Part shown: piece after piece, positions 4,060-26,886 of the stretch | Layout of the letters: every line of letters begins with the position of its first letter | Numbering within the stretch: position 1 is the stretch's first letter | Source of the DNA: Noviherbaspirillum pedocola | Lineage (GTDB): Bacteria; Pseudomonadota; Gammaproteobacteria; Burkholderiales; Burkholderiaceae_D | Assembly: GCF_016632335.1 (NCBI RefSeq) | Contig: NZ_JAEPBG010000018.1 | Coordinates: 1-64,000 of the forward strand | Length of the DNA stretch: 64,000 bases | Reading direction: 5' to 3' | The notes under the pieces: generated by a model | Databases searched by the model: none | What the model was told of the DNA's origin: nothing | Seen by the model: only the letters and a program-made list of their open reading frames with translations | Program-made: the position numbers and the translations under genes

Positions 4060-4754
4060 GCGCGGCGCACGAGCTGTTTCGCGGCATCCGCGCCGCCATC
4101 ATCGACCTGGACGGCACCATGCTCGATACCGCGCCGGACTTCCTGGTGGCGGTCAACCGCATGCGCGACGAACTGGGCCTGGCGCCGGTAGGCATCGACG
4201 TGATCACGCGCTTCGTCGGCAAGGGCACCGAGCACCTGGTGCGCAGCCTGCTGTCGCTGGATTACGCACCAGACGAACTCGATGCGCATTTCGATGCCGC
4301 GCTGGCGTCCTACCTGCGTCACTACCGCGAAATCAATGGTCTCCATGCGAGCATTTACCCCGGCGTCGAGGAAGGGCTGCGGCACTTCGCACAGCTGGGG
4401 CTGCGCCTGGCCTGCGTCACCAACAAGCCTCATGACTTTGCGCTGCCGCTGCTGGAGCGCGCGGGATTGCGTGGGCATTTCGAGCTGCTCTACGGCGGCG
4501 ATTCGCTGCCGAGGAAAAAGCCCGACCCGCTGCCGCTGCTGACCGTCTGCGCCGACTTTGACCTGGCGCCAGCGCAAGTCGTGGCCATCGGCGACTCGTC
4601 CAACGATGCGCAAGCCGCGCGCGCCGCCGGCTGCCGCGTGCTGAATGTCCCTTACGGCTACAACCATGGCCAGCCTATACAAGATGTCGACTCCGATGGT
4701 ATAGTCGCCACGCTGTTTGATGCAGCCCTCCTGATATCCGCGGCAAATTCCTGA
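4056..4754 (+). CDS. gph: phosphoglycolate phosphatase (HAD family)
   Basis: A 232-residue HAD hydrolase that dephosphorylates 2-phosphoglycolate, a product of DNA repair and oxygenase side reactions. HAD motif I is DLDGTMLDT (nucleophile Asp17, acid Asp19), motif II lies near VTNKP, motif III is the lysine region RKKPDP, and motif IV is [11 protein letters not shown]. Its start overlaps the rpe stop. The 3' end appears to hold the promoter of the trpE leader (4676-4705). Confidence 0.94.
4676..4705 (+). promoter_or_regulatory. candidate sigma-70 promoter of the trpE leader
   Basis: A hexamer TATACA (4676-4681) is followed after 18 bases by TATAGT (4700-4705). The second is close to the -10 consensus, while the first is a weak -35 match (4 of 6). 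It lies within the last 80 bp of gph and would start a transcript near 4712, about 45 nucleotides before the leader peptide. It is the best candidate for separate initiation of trpE, but read-through from rpe-gph is equally possible. Confidence 0.4.
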
Positions 4755-4757
4755 TAC

Positions 4758-4844
4758 ATGTCTCTCGTTAAAAAACATGGCTACCCGATGCCGGGCTCGT
4801 TTGAGGCCTGGCCCTGGCGACGCTGGCAATCCCGGACCAATTAG
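4758..4844 (+). CDS. trpL: trp operon leader peptide
   Basis: A 28-codon ORF, too short for routine gene finding, that runs from ATG 4758 to TAG 4842-4844. It contains three tryptophan codons in a six-codon cluster (W-P-W-R-R-W) near its end, in an organism whose ordinary proteins have about one Trp per hundred residues. A strong hairpin with a T-run follows 14 bases after the stop, and trpE begins 93 bases downstream. This is the architecture of ribosome-mediated transcription attenuation: stalling at Trp codons when tRNA-Trp is uncharged would prevent the terminator. No good ribosome site is visible before the ATG. I could not derive a convincing antiterminator pairing by eye. Confidence 0.8.
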   Translation: MSLVKKHGYPMPGSFEAWPWRRWQSRTN

Positions 4845-4857
4845 TCCCCGATATGCC

Positions 4858-4891
4858 TTCGGCCCCATCACGACGGGCCGAAATGTTTTTT
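4858..4891 (+). terminator. attenuator terminator before trpE
   Basis: A perfect 8-bp stem, TTCGGCCC (4858-4865) with GGGCCGAA (4875-4882), closes a nine-base loop and is followed by ATG and six T residues (4886-4891). It lies between the leader peptide and trpE on the same strand, where no gene ends, so it is best explained as a regulated premature terminator. A second weak hairpin (4825-4857) overlaps the third Trp codon and the leader stop and may be part of the switch. Confidence 0.8.
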
Positions 4892-4937
4892 GAACTCGCA
4901 AGCCGCAAACCGTACCTCATGCGGCAAGGAGAGAACC

Positions 4938-6434
4938 ATGACTGAACTCGAATTCAAATCGCTCACCGCGCAGGGCTACAACCGCATTCCGCTCATCGCC
5001 GAAGCCTTTGCCGACCTTGAAACGCCGCTGAGCCTGTACCTGAAACTCGCGCAAACCCAGAACGCCGGCAAGAATACCTTCCTGCTCGAATCCGTCGTTG
5101 GCGGCGAGCGCTTCGGCCGCTATTCCTTCATTGGCCTGCCCGCGTCCACGCTGCTGCGCAGCCATGGCAGCCGCACCGAAGTCATCAGGAACGGCGCCGT
5201 CACCGAAAGCCATGAAGGCAATCCGCTCGACTTCATCGCCGAATTCCAATCCCGCTTCAAGGTCGCGCTCCTGCCCGGCATGCCGCGTTTCTGCGGCGGC
5301 CTGGCCGGCTATTTCGGCTATGACACCGTGCGCCACATCGAGCGTCGCCTGGCACACAGCGCGCCGCGCGACGATCTCGGCCTGCCGGAGATTCAGCTGC
5401 TGCTGACCGAAGAGCTGGCCGTCATCGACAACCTGTCGGGCAAGCTGTACCTGATCGTGTATGCCGACCCGACCCAGCCCGAGGCCTATCCCCGCGCACG
5501 CCGGCGTCTGTCGGACCTGCGCGCGATGCTGCGCCGCGCGGTCGATGCGCCGGTCACTTCAGCCTCGGTGCGCACCGAGACCATCCGCGATTTCGACAAG
5601 GCCGATTACCTCGAAGCCGTCGCTCGCGCCAAGGAATACATCATGGCCGGCGATCTGATGCAGGTGCAGATCGGCCAGCGCCTGAAGAAGCCGTATGTGG
5701 ATTCGCCGCTGTCGCTGTATCGGGCGCTGCGCTCGCTGAATCCGTCGCCCTACATGTACTTCTACAACTTCGGCGACATGCACATCGTCGGCGCGTCGCC
5801 GGAGATCCTGGTGCGCAATGAAGCGCTGCCGGACGGTGGCAAGAAGGTAACGATCCGCCCGCTGGCCGGCACCCGGCCGCGCGGCAACACGCCGGAACGC
5901 GATGCGCAACTGGCCACGGAGCTCCTGGCCGACCCGAAGGAGATCGCCGAGCATGTGATGCTGATCGACCTGGCGCGCAACGACATCGGCCGCATCGCCG
6001 AGATCGGCAGCGTCAAGGTCACCGACAGGTTCGTGATCGAAAAGTATTCGCATGTGCAGCACATCGTTTCCAATGTCGAAGGCACCTTGAAGCCCGGCAT
6101 GTCGAATCTCGACGTGCTGCGTGCCACCTTCCCGGCCGGCACGCTGTCCGGCGCGCCCAAGGTGCGGGCAATGGAAATCATCGACGAGCTCGAGCCGGTC
6201 AAGCGCGGCATCTATGGCGGCGCCTGCGGCTATCTGTCCTTCGGCGGCGAGATGGACCTGGCGATTGCGATCCGCACCGGCGTGATCAAGGACGGCATGC
6301 TGTATGTGCAGGCTGCCGCCGGCATCGTCGCCGACTCGGTGCCCGAGATGGAATGGCAGGAAACCGAGAACAAGGCGCGCGCGGTGCTGCGCGCGGCCGA
6401 ACAGGTGCAGGACGGCCTGGACGGCGGACTGTGA
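4938..6434 (+). CDS. trpE: anthranilate synthase component I
   Basis: A 498-residue enzyme that makes anthranilate from chorismate with ammonia supplied by TrpG, the first committed step of tryptophan synthesis. The N-terminal domain carries the tryptophan feedback region (LLES, about residue 50), and the C-terminal chorismate-binding domain shows [36 protein letters not shown] and a C-terminal IQAAAGIV-like stretch (VQAAAGIV). The start is the ATG at 4938 with AAGGAGAG upstream; the frame is open a little further but overlaps the attenuator. The partner genes trpGDC are 3.2 kb downstream, not adjacent, because two opposite-strand genes intervene. Confidence 0.97.
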
Positions 6435-6547: not shown

Positions 6548-7225
6548 TCAATCGGGCTCGATATCGCCATTGGCGTCGTTGTAGACGAACCCCGCGTCAT
6601 GGATGTCGAAGGTCTTCGCCGGGATCGGCTTTCTGTCGATTTCCGTGATGCGCCATACCACCCTGCCGTCCTGTGCTGCGATCAGCATCGGCACATGCTG
6701 CTGTGCGCTCCAGCAGATGCGGCTGGAGCGGCCATCCTGCTTCAATTCATACCAGGAGCAGGATTGCAGTGGCTTCGTCGCATCCTTGGGCGCCATGGCA
6801 GCGCTCAGCGTGTAGCCGCCCTTCGGATGGCGCAACGCATGACCGAGGTCGAACCAGTCGGTGAAATTGCCGATGCGGTAAAGGTTCGTGCGGCTGACCT
6901 TCGTGTGGATGCGCTTCTTCAGGTCGAGGATGGACATGTCGAATTCCGCGTCGCCCGGCTGATGCGATGCATAAGTCTCGACGCGGTCGTCAGTGCGGCG
7001 CTTCACGCGGCGATCCGCGTCGCGCCAGACTTCCATCCGGTGCTCGGCGCCGCCGCTGCTGTAGACGGCCTGGTAATGCAGCGCGGCCGGTTCGCCGCGC
7101 TGATGGAAGACCTGCTCGAATGTAAGTTCACTGGCCTCAGACTGCAGGGAAAACGCGGCCGCCGCGCACAGCGCGGCGATCCGCCATCCCTGCCCCCGAA
7201 AGCCACGGTATTGCTCGTGGTTCAA
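6548..7225 (-). CDS. secreted hypothetical protein
   Basis: A protein of about 225 residues with an N-terminal hydrophobic stretch (IAALCAAAAFSLQSEAS) that looks like a Sec signal peptide ending near residue 30. The rest is a soluble domain with several Trp and Tyr, two cysteines close together (SCSWYEL and ICWSAQ) and an acidic end. I do not recognise a family. No ATG is available: two in-frame TTG codons exist at 7231 and 7225, and AGGAG is only one base before the first but seven before the second, so 7225 is preferred. Its stop faces trpE. It lies just downstream of the phosphodiesterase gene on the same strand (60-bp gap), so the two may be co-transcribed. Confidence 0.7.
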   Translation of the reverse strand: MNHEQYRGFRGQGWRIAALCAAAAFSLQSEASELTFEQVFHQRGEPAALHYQAVYSSGGAEHRMEVWRDADRRVKRRTDDRVETYASHQPGDAEFDMSILDLKKRIHTKVSRTNLYRIGNFTDWFDLGHALRHPKGGYTLSAAMAPKDATKPLQSCSWYELKQDGRSSRICWSAQQHVPMLIAAQDGRVVWRITEIDRKPIPAKTFDIHDAGFVYNDANGDIEPD

Positions 7226-7285
7226 GGACAAACTCCTGTCAGGTTGTCGGCGGCCTTTGCCAACGCAAGGCCCCCGATACGGCGC

Positions 7286-9448
7286 TTATTTGCGCACTGC
7301 CTTCGCATAGTCAAAGTAGCGGTAGGTCTTGCCATCCACGCTCAGGTCCTTCACCGCCATGTTGATGGTGTAGGTGCCTGCGGCGAGCGACGCATCCTTG
7401 GTCGCGCCGGTGAGGTCGGTCGGCAGCTCGAACGCCAGGCCGCTGGCCGCGGACGAGCTCACGGTGGACGCGGCCACGTTCGGTTGCGACTTCGATGCCG
7501 GAGTGACCAGCGCTTCATTGATCACGCGACCGTCGGCCTGCGGCATGGACAAACCGAGCAGATAGGCCACGGTCGGCGCGACGTCGACGTTGCCGGTCGG
7601 CGTGGTCAGCGTCAGGCCGCCCTGGAAGGACGGTCCATTTGCAATCAGCGTGTTGTGCACGTCGGCGATGCCGAAGCTGCCATGCATGCCACGCTGACCG
7701 CCGACGCTTTCGAACTCGATACCGGGCATGCCCTGGATGGACGTGTCGGCATCCCAGTTGAAGGACACCACCACGTCGGGCTGGCCATTGTTCTGGCGCT
7801 TGCCGTTTTCCAGATTGGCCTGCGCCATCGTCAGCGTGCCGGGAATGGAACCGTAGCGGCTGTCGACGAAGATCGCGCCGTATTCCTCGCGCTGCTGCAG
7901 CACCTTCACCAGGTTCTGCACCGTGGCCGCATCATGGCTGGGAACATAGAAGTAATCCGAGCCGCCGTTGGCCGCGACGACGATGCCGTTGGCCGGAAGC
8001 GACCCCGGCGCCGGCACGGTGAAGCGCGCGGTCGGGTTGCTGGTCTTCGTGGCGCTGATGGCCTGGTACTTGGTATTGACGGTGCCGCACAGCGCGCCGT
8101 TGGCGTCAGTCTTCACCGGCAGGGTCGGATTGCCGTTTGCATCCAGGCCATACATGGCGCTGGTGCTGCAGCCGCTGCCGTCATAGGCGTTGAAACCGCG
8201 ATAGGTCAGCAGGTCGGCCGAGCGCACGTCGCCGGAGAAGGAATAGCCATTGGCGTTGACCGCGCCCAGCGATGCCGCGCTGGTGCCGCTGGTGGAACCG
8301 TTCACCGCCGTGCCGTTGGGCAGGCTCGCCGACGGCGTGATCGCGCGCAGCGGATACAGCGACAGCGGACCGGACACGCTCGAATGGCCATGGTCGGACA
8401 CCACGACGAGGTTGGTGCTGTTGTCCATGCCGTTGGCGCGCAGCGCAGCGATCAGCTCGCCCAGGCGCGCATCCTGCGAGCGCAGGCCGGCTTTCATGTT
8501 CGCGGTGCCCGGACCGTAACCGTGCTCGACATTGTCCGGCGTGCGAAACCAGATCAGCGACAGCATCGGCTTCTTCTTCGGCAGGATGTACTGCGTGTAG
8601 ACCGACAGCATGTATTTGTTGGCCGCGTCTTCCGGCGCGCCCTGGGTGGTGTCGGCCGAATCGCGCGCGGCCACGGTCAGCGTGCCGTTCGGATCATAGG
8701 CGGTGGTATTGAAGGTGATGTAGCCGGCGCGCGCGGTCGGATTGCCGTTGGACGAAGCCAGCGTCACCGCATCGGCGCCGGAATAGTTCTTTACGACATT
8801 GGCCGGCAGTGCGATGCCGCTGTTCTGCAACTCGGTGGCCAGGCTGCGCGGCTGCACCGTGTTTTCATCGAGGAAGACGCCGCCCTGTCCCAGGTCCTGC
8901 AGATAGGCAGCGCCGGACTTGCCGATGGTCGCGGTCGTCAGACCGGCGGCCTGCGCGGTCGCGAACAGGCTCTTCACCAGCAGCAGCTGGCCGCCGTAGT
9001 AAGTGTTCAGCGTGGCCAGCACGGCATAGTCTTCGGTGAAGACCGGGTCCTGGTAATCCTGCGCGCTGCCGGACGCGCCATTGCCCGCCGGGATCGTATT
9101 GGCGCTGCCTTGCGGCGGCGTCCAGAAAGTGTTGCCGTAGAAACCGCTGGTCTTCGGGAAGGAACCGGTCGCAAACGACGACGAGTTCATCATCGTGAAG
9201 GTCGGATAGGTCGAATGGTTGTCGCTGAAGTTCACGCCGGATTGGCGCAGCGCGTACAGGTTGGGTGTGTCGGTGGCATTCACCGAGTCGGGACGCAGGC
9301 CGTCCCAGACCATGATGATGGTGCGGGTCGGCGTCAGCGTGGTCGTGCCGGCCGCCGCTGCGGCGGGCGCATCATCGGAGCCGCCGGCGCAGCCGGCGAG
9401 AACGGCGCTCGCAATCAATGCGCCGATCAGGGTAAGGCGAAACTTCAC
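7286..9448 (-). CDS. alkaline phosphatase superfamily phosphodiesterase (lipoprotein)
   Basis: A 720-residue lipoprotein of the type I phosphodiesterase/nucleotide pyrophosphatase clan. The signal ends in the lipobox LAGC (Cys20). Metal and catalytic motifs are present: Asp49 in IIMVWDGLRPD, a Thr nucleophile at about 85 in YPTFTMMNSSSFATG, the VVSDHGHS metal site, and a C-terminal HGSFGI. It probably hydrolyses a phosphodiester or phosphate ester at the cell surface or in the periplasm; the substrate is unknown. The start is a GTG at 9448 with GGAGG upstream, which places the lipobox correctly. It sits backwards inside the trp gene order, divergent from trpG. Confidence 0.85.
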   Translation of the reverse strand: MKFRLTLIGALIASAVLAGCAGGSDDAPAAAAAGTTTLTPTRTIIMVWDGLRPDSVNATDTPNLYALRQSGVNFSDNHSTYPTFTMMNSSSFATGSFPKTSGFYGNTFWTPPQGSANTIPAGNGASGSAQDYQDPVFTEDYAVLATLNTYYGGQLLLVKSLFATAQAAGLTTATIGKSGAAYLQDLGQGGVFLDENTVQPRSLATELQNSGIALPANVVKNYSGADAVTLASSNGNPTARAGYITFNTTAYDPNGTLTVAARDSADTTQGAPEDAANKYMLSVYTQYILPKKKPMLSLIWFRTPDNVEHGYGPGTANMKAGLRSQDARLGELIAALRANGMDNSTNLVVVSDHGHSSVSGPLSLYPLRAITPSASLPNGTAVNGSTSGTSAASLGAVNANGYSFSGDVRSADLLTYRGFNAYDGSGCSTSAMYGLDANGNPTLPVKTDANGALCGTVNTKYQAISATKTSNPTARFTVPAPGSLPANGIVVAANGGSDYFYVPSHDAATVQNLVKVLQQREEYGAIFVDSRYGSIPGTLTMAQANLENGKRQNNGQPDVVVSFNWDADTSIQGMPGIEFESVGGQRGMHGSFGIADVHNTLIANGPSFQGGLTLTTPTGNVDVAPTVAYLLGLSMPQADGRVINEALVTPASKSQPNVAASTVSSSAASGLAFELPTDLTGATKDASLAAGTYTINMAVKDLSVDGKTYRYFDYAKAVRK

Positions 9449-9677
9449 GGGAGATCCTCCGGGGGTCGTGGCTATCGGAACGGGCAAAACATTGCCTCTT
9501 GTCAAAGACGCCATATGATGGCGGGCTCAAATGACATGCCGGTGACCAACCGGTTTCAGCACGATGACGCGCGCAGCGGCCGATGGCGATGCTGCCCACC
9601 CCGACCTCTTCTTTTCGGCGAAAATAGCGCCCTGTTTGCGGATCTTCCGCAGTCAAACACATAGGATGACAAGCGAA

Positions 9678-26535: not shown

Positions 26536-26886
26536 GGAACGTCCTCGCGAATCTTGTTATGAGGGCTGCAGAGTAAATTCTTGCTTAATATTCCGGAACC
26601 GATGTTTACTGCTTTACATATGCATCAGGCGCATAAGGCGGGTACTGCGACCTGTGCGTGGATCCATTACTTCAGGCCGTCGCGCTTGAAGCGAAATCCG
26701 TGTTTCCCCTTGCGTCTCCAGCGCGTGGACGAAAAAAAACCCGCTCACTGGGAGCGGGTTAATCCATCCTTTGGAGGGTGGAGGAGACAGGTGCAACTAT
26801 AAAGACGCGGAAGCCGGAAACGAAATTGTCATTCCCGATAGCCGTTATGCGCTGCGTGAATGATGCGGCTAGCCGTGTTGTGATGC
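26536..26886. other. intergenic region between sbp and the DUF4148 gene
   Basis: About 350 bp. The part nearest sbp (26560-26640) is AT-rich and is the likely sulfur-operon promoter region. It also contains the terminator of the DUF4148 gene (26732-26760, separate entry). No supported gene; the short ORFs here lack ribosome sites. Confidence 0.6.
26732..26760 (-). terminator. intrinsic terminator of the DUF4148 gene
   Basis: Read on the minus strand, AACCCGCTC pairs with GAGCGGGTT around a five-base loop and runs straight into eight T residues. It lies about 130 bp after the DUF4148 stop and before the sulfur operon, so it insulates sbp from that transcript. Confidence 0.9.

Follow-up and report, generated by a model that had tools for sequence, protein, structure and literature searches.

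The DNA ahead of trpE in Noviherbaspirillum pedocola raises the question of how a short, Trp-rich reading frame might control this gene, and whether it does so as the textbook trp attenuator does. The window analyzed here is a stretch of 64,000 nucleotides in which rpe-gph, a 28-codon ORF, a GC hairpin, a T6 run, and trpE follow one another in that order; NCBIfam names its genes rpe, gph, trpE, trpG, trpD, and trpC. A first-pass annotation had described a 28-codon ORF with W-P-W-R-R-W, an 8-bp hairpin, a T-run, and a trpE with its own ribosome site, all of which are present in the sequence. gph ends at 4754, the leader ATG follows after a gap of 3 nt, and trpE starts with the ATG at 4938. The leader ORF runs from ATG to TAG and encodes the peptide MSLVKKHGYPMPGSFEAWPWRRWQSRTN.

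4758 to 4844, forward strand: leader ORF of 28 codons with Trp at codons 18, 20, and 23 (from sequence; conserved in 114 of 127 upstream regions).
4928 to 4933, forward strand: trpE ribosome-binding site (RBS), GGAGAG (from sequence).
4938 to 6434, forward strand: trpE, anthranilate synthase component I (NCBIfam TIGR00564, 546.7 bits against a cut-off of 517.7).

The leader follows gph, as annotated, and within the window trpE is indeed split from trpGDC. The gap between trpE and trpG holds two reverse-strand ORFs, one at 6548-7231 with no family assigned and one at 7286-9514 with a type I phosphodiesterase domain. Among 80 named relatives, 73 have trpG at most 1.2 kb 3′ of trpE (2-815 nt); the remainder are five in which no trpG was found and two with a contig too short. 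The separation thus seems to be a feature local to this stretch of DNA. The best named relative is Noviherbaspirillum soli, with a TrpE identity of 93%. Elsewhere in the window, an Rfam match to a Betaproteobacteria toxic small RNA family lies at 26731-26789 on the minus strand (53.3 bits; gathering score, 50).

The leader is conserved beyond chance. We found trpE matches in 143 of 145 family genomes and took upstream regions from 127 of them; the 16 left out were 10 weak or partial matches and six full-length ones from genera already sampled (g26 and g41). A leader is encoded in 114 of the 127 regions, across 32 genera, following the pattern M(F/S)Lx..K(R/H)...EAW(L/P)WRRWQ or, in one genus, the variant ISGGLWRRW. 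The annotation had predicted that a Trp cluster with changing flanks would recur upstream of trpE in relatives, and this is what we observe. One of the 13 regions without a leader (L125) carries a decayed form. A second leader type, with cores such as EWMLQ...AW, precedes trpE in other genera of the family (L116, L118, L119, and L120).

The leader recurs in named relatives. The core matches in 74 of the best 80, in genera that include Noviherbaspirillum, Massilia, Janthinobacterium, Herbaspirillum, Undibacterium, Duganella, Burkholderia, and Pandoraea; the misses are five Cupriavidus loci and L243. A wider pattern recovers a Cupriavidus leader, MFLNRKR...QAWPWRRW, in four loci (all three tried first, then a fourth), and L243 has MFLNRKR...GAWPWRPW. 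Of 40 trpE loci examined in other families of the order, 21 also have a Trp-rich mini-ORF upstream, defined by hand; WRWRR and SWRWW are examples of their cores. An exact 14-mer of the core matched 68 of 300 order genomes at positions not tied to trpE, and this count is therefore no measure of its spread.

The first Trp is codon 17 or 18 in 103 of the 114 leaders, and of the 79 loci that have the start motif, 78 have it in frame (35 loci lack it). Between leaders of the same genus, compared in pairs, we counted 484 changes at the first codon position, 344 at the second, and 637 at the third, with 325 synonymous versus 760 non-synonymous codon changes, a pattern that gives only mild support to translation. 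Clustered codons for the regulated amino acid, a mark of the E. coli trp class, are present as W-P-W-R-R-W (114 of 127 regions). In our judgement, it is very likely that trpE is under leader-peptide control that responds to Trp.

The core of the leader is conserved at the nucleotide level.

4803 to 4829, forward strand: nucleotide-conserved core GAG GCC TGG CCC TGG CGA CGC TGG CAA (codon tallies over 114 loci).

The codon after the first Trp is free at its third base (CTT 33, CTA 31, CTG 30, and CTC 7 in the 114 leaders). CGA stands beside a Trp codon in 111 of the 114 family leaders (4818-4820 in the window) and next to TGG in 13 of the 21 leaders from other families. Eight window genes use this codon for one of their 164 Arg residues, and trpE from 80 named loci for 48 of 2767 (about 2%). 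Burkholderia, Paraburkholderia, and Cupriavidus have CGT at this position. Within one genus (L104, L105, L106, and L107), the third Trp codon has become TAG, so that the peptide ends in EAWLWRR; CGACGC and the surrounding nucleotides are kept. A slow codon and an RNA contact are candidate explanations for the near-invariant CGA. Inspection of sequences and folds by eye gave no consistent pairing partner for the invariant CGACGC, and we rejected RNA pairing as its cause. tRNA binding by the UGGC repeats and a pause site for transcription were further candidates that we set aside.

Transcription of the leader probably starts inside gph. The candidate extended -10 element TGGTATAGT occurs upstream of the leader in 97 of the 114 loci, at a median of 78 nt before its start. 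A promoter scan alone performed at chance level, with two found against 1.6 expected.

4697 to 4705, forward strand: candidate extended -10 element TGGTATAGT, within the 3′ end of gph (same string in relatives).

The RNA from 4758 to 4893 is more stable than its shuffles (z -4.0, 0 of 200), and folding predicts three hairpins between the last Trp codon and the trpE RBS.

4825 to 4857, forward strand: hairpin C, from the third Trp codon across the stop codon, abutting hairpin D (minimum-energy folds).
4858 to 4882, forward strand: hairpin D, annotated as the terminator stem (probability 0.93-0.96 at all ribosome positions).
4902 to 4925, forward strand: hairpin E, directly 5′ of the trpE RBS (minimum-energy fold; similar hairpins seen by eye in relatives).

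Hairpin D has 8-bp arms (4858-4865 and 4875-4882) and a 9-nt loop, and is followed by ATG as a 3-nt gap and then by T6 at 4886-4891. These parts would suit an intrinsic terminator; a generic scan did not list hairpin D among terminator-like elements. A run of at least five T lies between leader and trpE in 93 of the 114 family loci and is absent in 21. Relatives of Janthinobacterium lividum carry a U-run, and a Cupriavidus necator locus lacks one.

This arrangement invites comparison with classical attenuation of the E. coli trp type, in which a ribosome stalled at Trp codons would allow an antiterminator to form co-transcriptionally and keep hairpin D from folding; the downstream pairing described below (helix A) would then only tidy the released leader RNA. 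Trp codons, hairpin, and U-run are correctly ordered for it, and the T-run is kept in the 93 loci just mentioned. The annotation's reading as ribosome-mediated attenuation is borne out for the conserved Trp leader and not supported for the antiterminator that was expected to compete with 4858-4882. Hairpin C, the sole neighboring helix, does not overlap hairpin D, and a single ribosome placed at each codon leaves the probability of D in the window at 0.93-0.96, in folding models that describe equilibrium only.

The same holds, on average, across the family. Over 93 loci from 27 genera, the mean probability of D is 0.72, 0.73, and 0.76 with the ribosome at the first, second, and third Trp; it is 0.75 when the ribosome is at the stop codon and 0.63 on ribosome-free RNA. 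Comparing the first Trp with the stop codon, D differs by more than 0.1 in the classical direction (lower) in four genera and is higher in two. When the RNA ends in the loop of D, the 5′ arm of D is held upstream at 0.51 (first Trp) versus 0.46 (stop); eight of the 27 genera favor an antiterminator by this measure, four go the opposite way, and the window's genus shows no difference. A kinetic antiterminator is thus possible in some genera, but models of the window show none. We find no antiterminator dependent on ribosome position in the window and no mean effect across the 27 genera. Since helix A is also retained where the U-run has been lost, we regard classical attenuation as rather doubtful here.

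The T-run has a partner that the annotation missed, namely the head of the leader (its first codons).

4768 to 4778, forward strand: helix A, 5′ strand, leader codons 4-7 (folds; covariation and permutation tests).
4883 to 4893, forward strand: helix A, 3′ strand, holding the T6 run 4886-4891 (folds).

Predicted folds pair these two segments. Because the start of the leader pairs with RNA so far downstream, the fold appears to differ from that of the textbook E. coli trp switch. Across the 114 loci, a head pairs with its own downstream region at a mean of -11.7 kcal/mol versus -9.8 kcal/mol in cross-genus combinations (median rank, 0.30).

Such pairing could be accidental: an A-rich Lys-Lys stretch would face the terminator U-run, and both ends share a CATG palindrome. 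A6 and U6 pair trivially and CATG pairs with itself; however, four observations speak against this. First, the letters flanking the runs covary in the 85 loci that combine an A run with a T run (26 genera and 67 distinct rows, with another 29 loci skipped). Position pair x1:X1 is paired at 0.82 versus 0.71 and y2:Y2 at 0.64 versus 0.47 (0 of 5000 shuffles each), and y3:Y3 at 0.51 versus 0.43 (fraction 0.021); x2, x3, y1, and y4 give no significant covariation in these 67 rows. Second, heads without a five-A run also match their downstream regions (24 distinct, 13 genera), at -13.58 against a permuted -11.66 (1 of 20,000) or, taking one per genus, at a mean z of -2.26 and a median fraction of 0.013. 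These shuffle and permutation statistics ignore kinship. Third, eight window genes use AAG for 79 of their 90 Lys codons. Fourth, the RBS test described below holds without the start codons. We therefore consider accidental pairing very unlikely.

Helix A persists through changes on both of its strands. In Pandoraea commovens the strands are CAAGAAACGG and CCGUUUCUUG, in genus g26 they are ACAACAAACG and CGUUUGUUGU (Herbaspirillum has the same head), and in genus g5 they are CAAUAAACC and GGUUUAUUG. In Cupriavidus and L243, the helix forms without any U-run. Compensatory changes are also seen where the T-run is broken or absent, as in Pandoraea, Herbaspirillum-type loci, and Cupriavidus. Because the pairing is kept with both strands changed or with the U-run missing, this suggests that helix A is selected and is more than a by-product of a terminator. 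Sequence comparison shows a conserved leader and a helix A with compensatory changes. The match between head and tail is no better than controls in six loci (L011, L055, L062, L092, L093, and L106), and in five more (L043, L051, L069, L091, and L109) the head matches best elsewhere than in its own tail.

A U-run shielded by helix A, together with the nucleotide-level conservation of the core, would also fit a terminated leader that targets other trp genes in trans, whether as a small RNA or as a peptide, with helix A shielding the U-tail. The peTrpL peptide of Sinorhizobium meliloti is different from the leader peptide of the window. A precedent is provided by S. meliloti rnTrpL/peTrpL, where a trp leader peptide likewise comes from an attenuator (PMC7298713). 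Cupriavidus, Herbaspirillum, and others have no U-tail, and we judge action in trans to be highly improbable.

The leader head has a second predicted partner, the trpE RBS.

4757 to 4766, forward strand: leader start, predicted partner of the trpE RBS region 4929-4940 (minimum-energy fold of 4712-4990; weak as a family feature).

This pairing has support outside the window's own family. In the 21 leaders from other families, which were chosen by their Trp-rich ORF and not by pairing, head and RBS pair at -13.41 versus a permuted -9.68 kcal/mol (z -5.8, 0 of 20,000). Since both segments share the CATG palindrome, the start codons were removed; the result was -10.73 versus -8.29 (z -4.2, 3 of 20,000). 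About half of the 21 loci drive the signal, and L130, L131, L132, L140, L151, and L163 are among those that show little. Shuffling the head in full-context folds raises mean RBS access from 0.295 to 0.385, with 13 of the 21 loci in the expected direction. Stalled-ribosome states raise access in these families from 0.28 to 0.38-0.46, the higher value being that of a Trp-stalled ribosome pair (0.46 versus 0.28).

Within the window's family, an effect on the RBS is predicted for the window itself but not family-wide. In the window, a ribosome covering codons 1-10 raises RBS access from 0.15 to 0.46-0.50, and shuffling the head in a shorter stretch raises it from 0.34 to 0.46 (fraction 0.07). Access in the window stays at 0.15 either way when a lone ribosome stalls at the Trp codons, and in the window's genus the RBS is not opened by a Trp-stalled pair (0.18 versus 0.22). 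RBS access across the family is 0.35 in all single-ribosome states, and shuffling heads family-wide has no effect (0.389 native, 0.381 shuffled). Own head-RBS pairs are better than cross-genus pairs in only 19 of 32 family genera, and twelve further family loci, mostly with other leader types, show no RBS pairing (z -1.27). We therefore rejected RBS pairing as the main conserved feature of this family.

These data bear on the proposal that control is mainly translational, with hairpins B, C, and D as spacers and a composite helix (leader start with RBS, codons 4-7 with U-run) hiding the trpE RBS. The RBS pairing predicted in the window and in about half of the other-family leaders is consistent with it, as is the absence of the U-run from 21 of the 114 family loci. 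Unresponsive RBS access across the family and the 19 of 32 genera argue against it. In neither the window nor its genus does a stalled ribosome open the RBS, as it would in a translational attenuator, and we think this proposal unlikely.

We favor, tentatively and with less than even confidence, a variant of leader-peptide attenuation whose likely switch is not a classical antiterminator but whether a ribosome occupies the leader head. For this variant we infer a Trp response, a promoter, termination, and ribosome queueing with a given direction of effect, as follows. A ribosome would translate the 28-codon leader and, when charged tRNA-Trp runs short, slow at the Trp codons. What the RNA does would be decided by the leader head through long-range pairing with a downstream control element; this element would be the U-run that follows hairpin D in the window's family, and in several other families the trpE RBS. 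When Trp is plentiful, the head would be mostly free, the long helix and hairpin D would form, and trpE would be kept low by termination near 4891, perhaps with RBS occlusion as well. With scarce Trp, ribosomes would stall at codons 18-23 and the next ribosome, about ten codons behind, would cover the head, so that the long helix would remain open. The following ribosome is placed on the head because the first Trp is at codon 17 or 18 in most leaders. It is somewhat unlikely, though conceivable, that Burkholderiales trpE leaders form an attenuator class of their own, with a portable anti-element head that evolution redirects to the factor limiting trpE (the U-run after a hairpin in the window's family, the RBS in others); ribosome queueing behind Trp and a conserved, probably slow CGA would read this switch in place of a competing antiterminator.

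Known systems resemble this head-occupancy variant in part. E. coli trpL shares a short leader peptide with clustered Trp and an adjoining Arg codon, a GC hairpin, and a U-run before trpE; the window differs in having no overlapping antiterminator in its predicted folds, a leader start that pairs with the U-run, another peptide, and no Rfam match. In Rfam 15, positions 4650-5000 gave no match up to an E value of 10 and none at gathering scores, Trp leader and T-box included. The nearest printed parallel that we found is the LEU element of Actinobacteria (PMC1262725), whose leader ORF likewise carries codons for the amino acid under control. In that system the pairing partner of the box is the Leu codon run, and a pseudoknot has been proposed; in the window, by contrast, it is the first codons that pair, with the Trp codons enclosed between the two strands, and the partner in the family is the U-run. 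In ermC-like macrolide translational attenuators (named in PMC2965389), leader translation would likewise decide whether the RBS is hidden, whereas the window has an amino-acid signal, a Trp-rich leader, and the U-run as the main conserved partner in its family.

Among the literature matches listed, none describes a trp leader in Burkholderiales in its title or the opening of its abstract; subscription journals are thinly covered there, and an older prediction may exist. Neither of two Burkholderia cenocepacia papers uses a word starting with trp in its main text. One of them, PMC5688073, reports 82 short 5′UTRs in a supplementary table that may include a trpE leader.

If our reading is true, lineages differ in where the same leader start is aimed, either at a terminator-like U-run or at the RBS. 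A change between transcriptional and translational control would thus be open to comparative study. If the leader head is the switch, then ribosome queueing and a rare Arg codon would have a testable role in amino-acid sensing.
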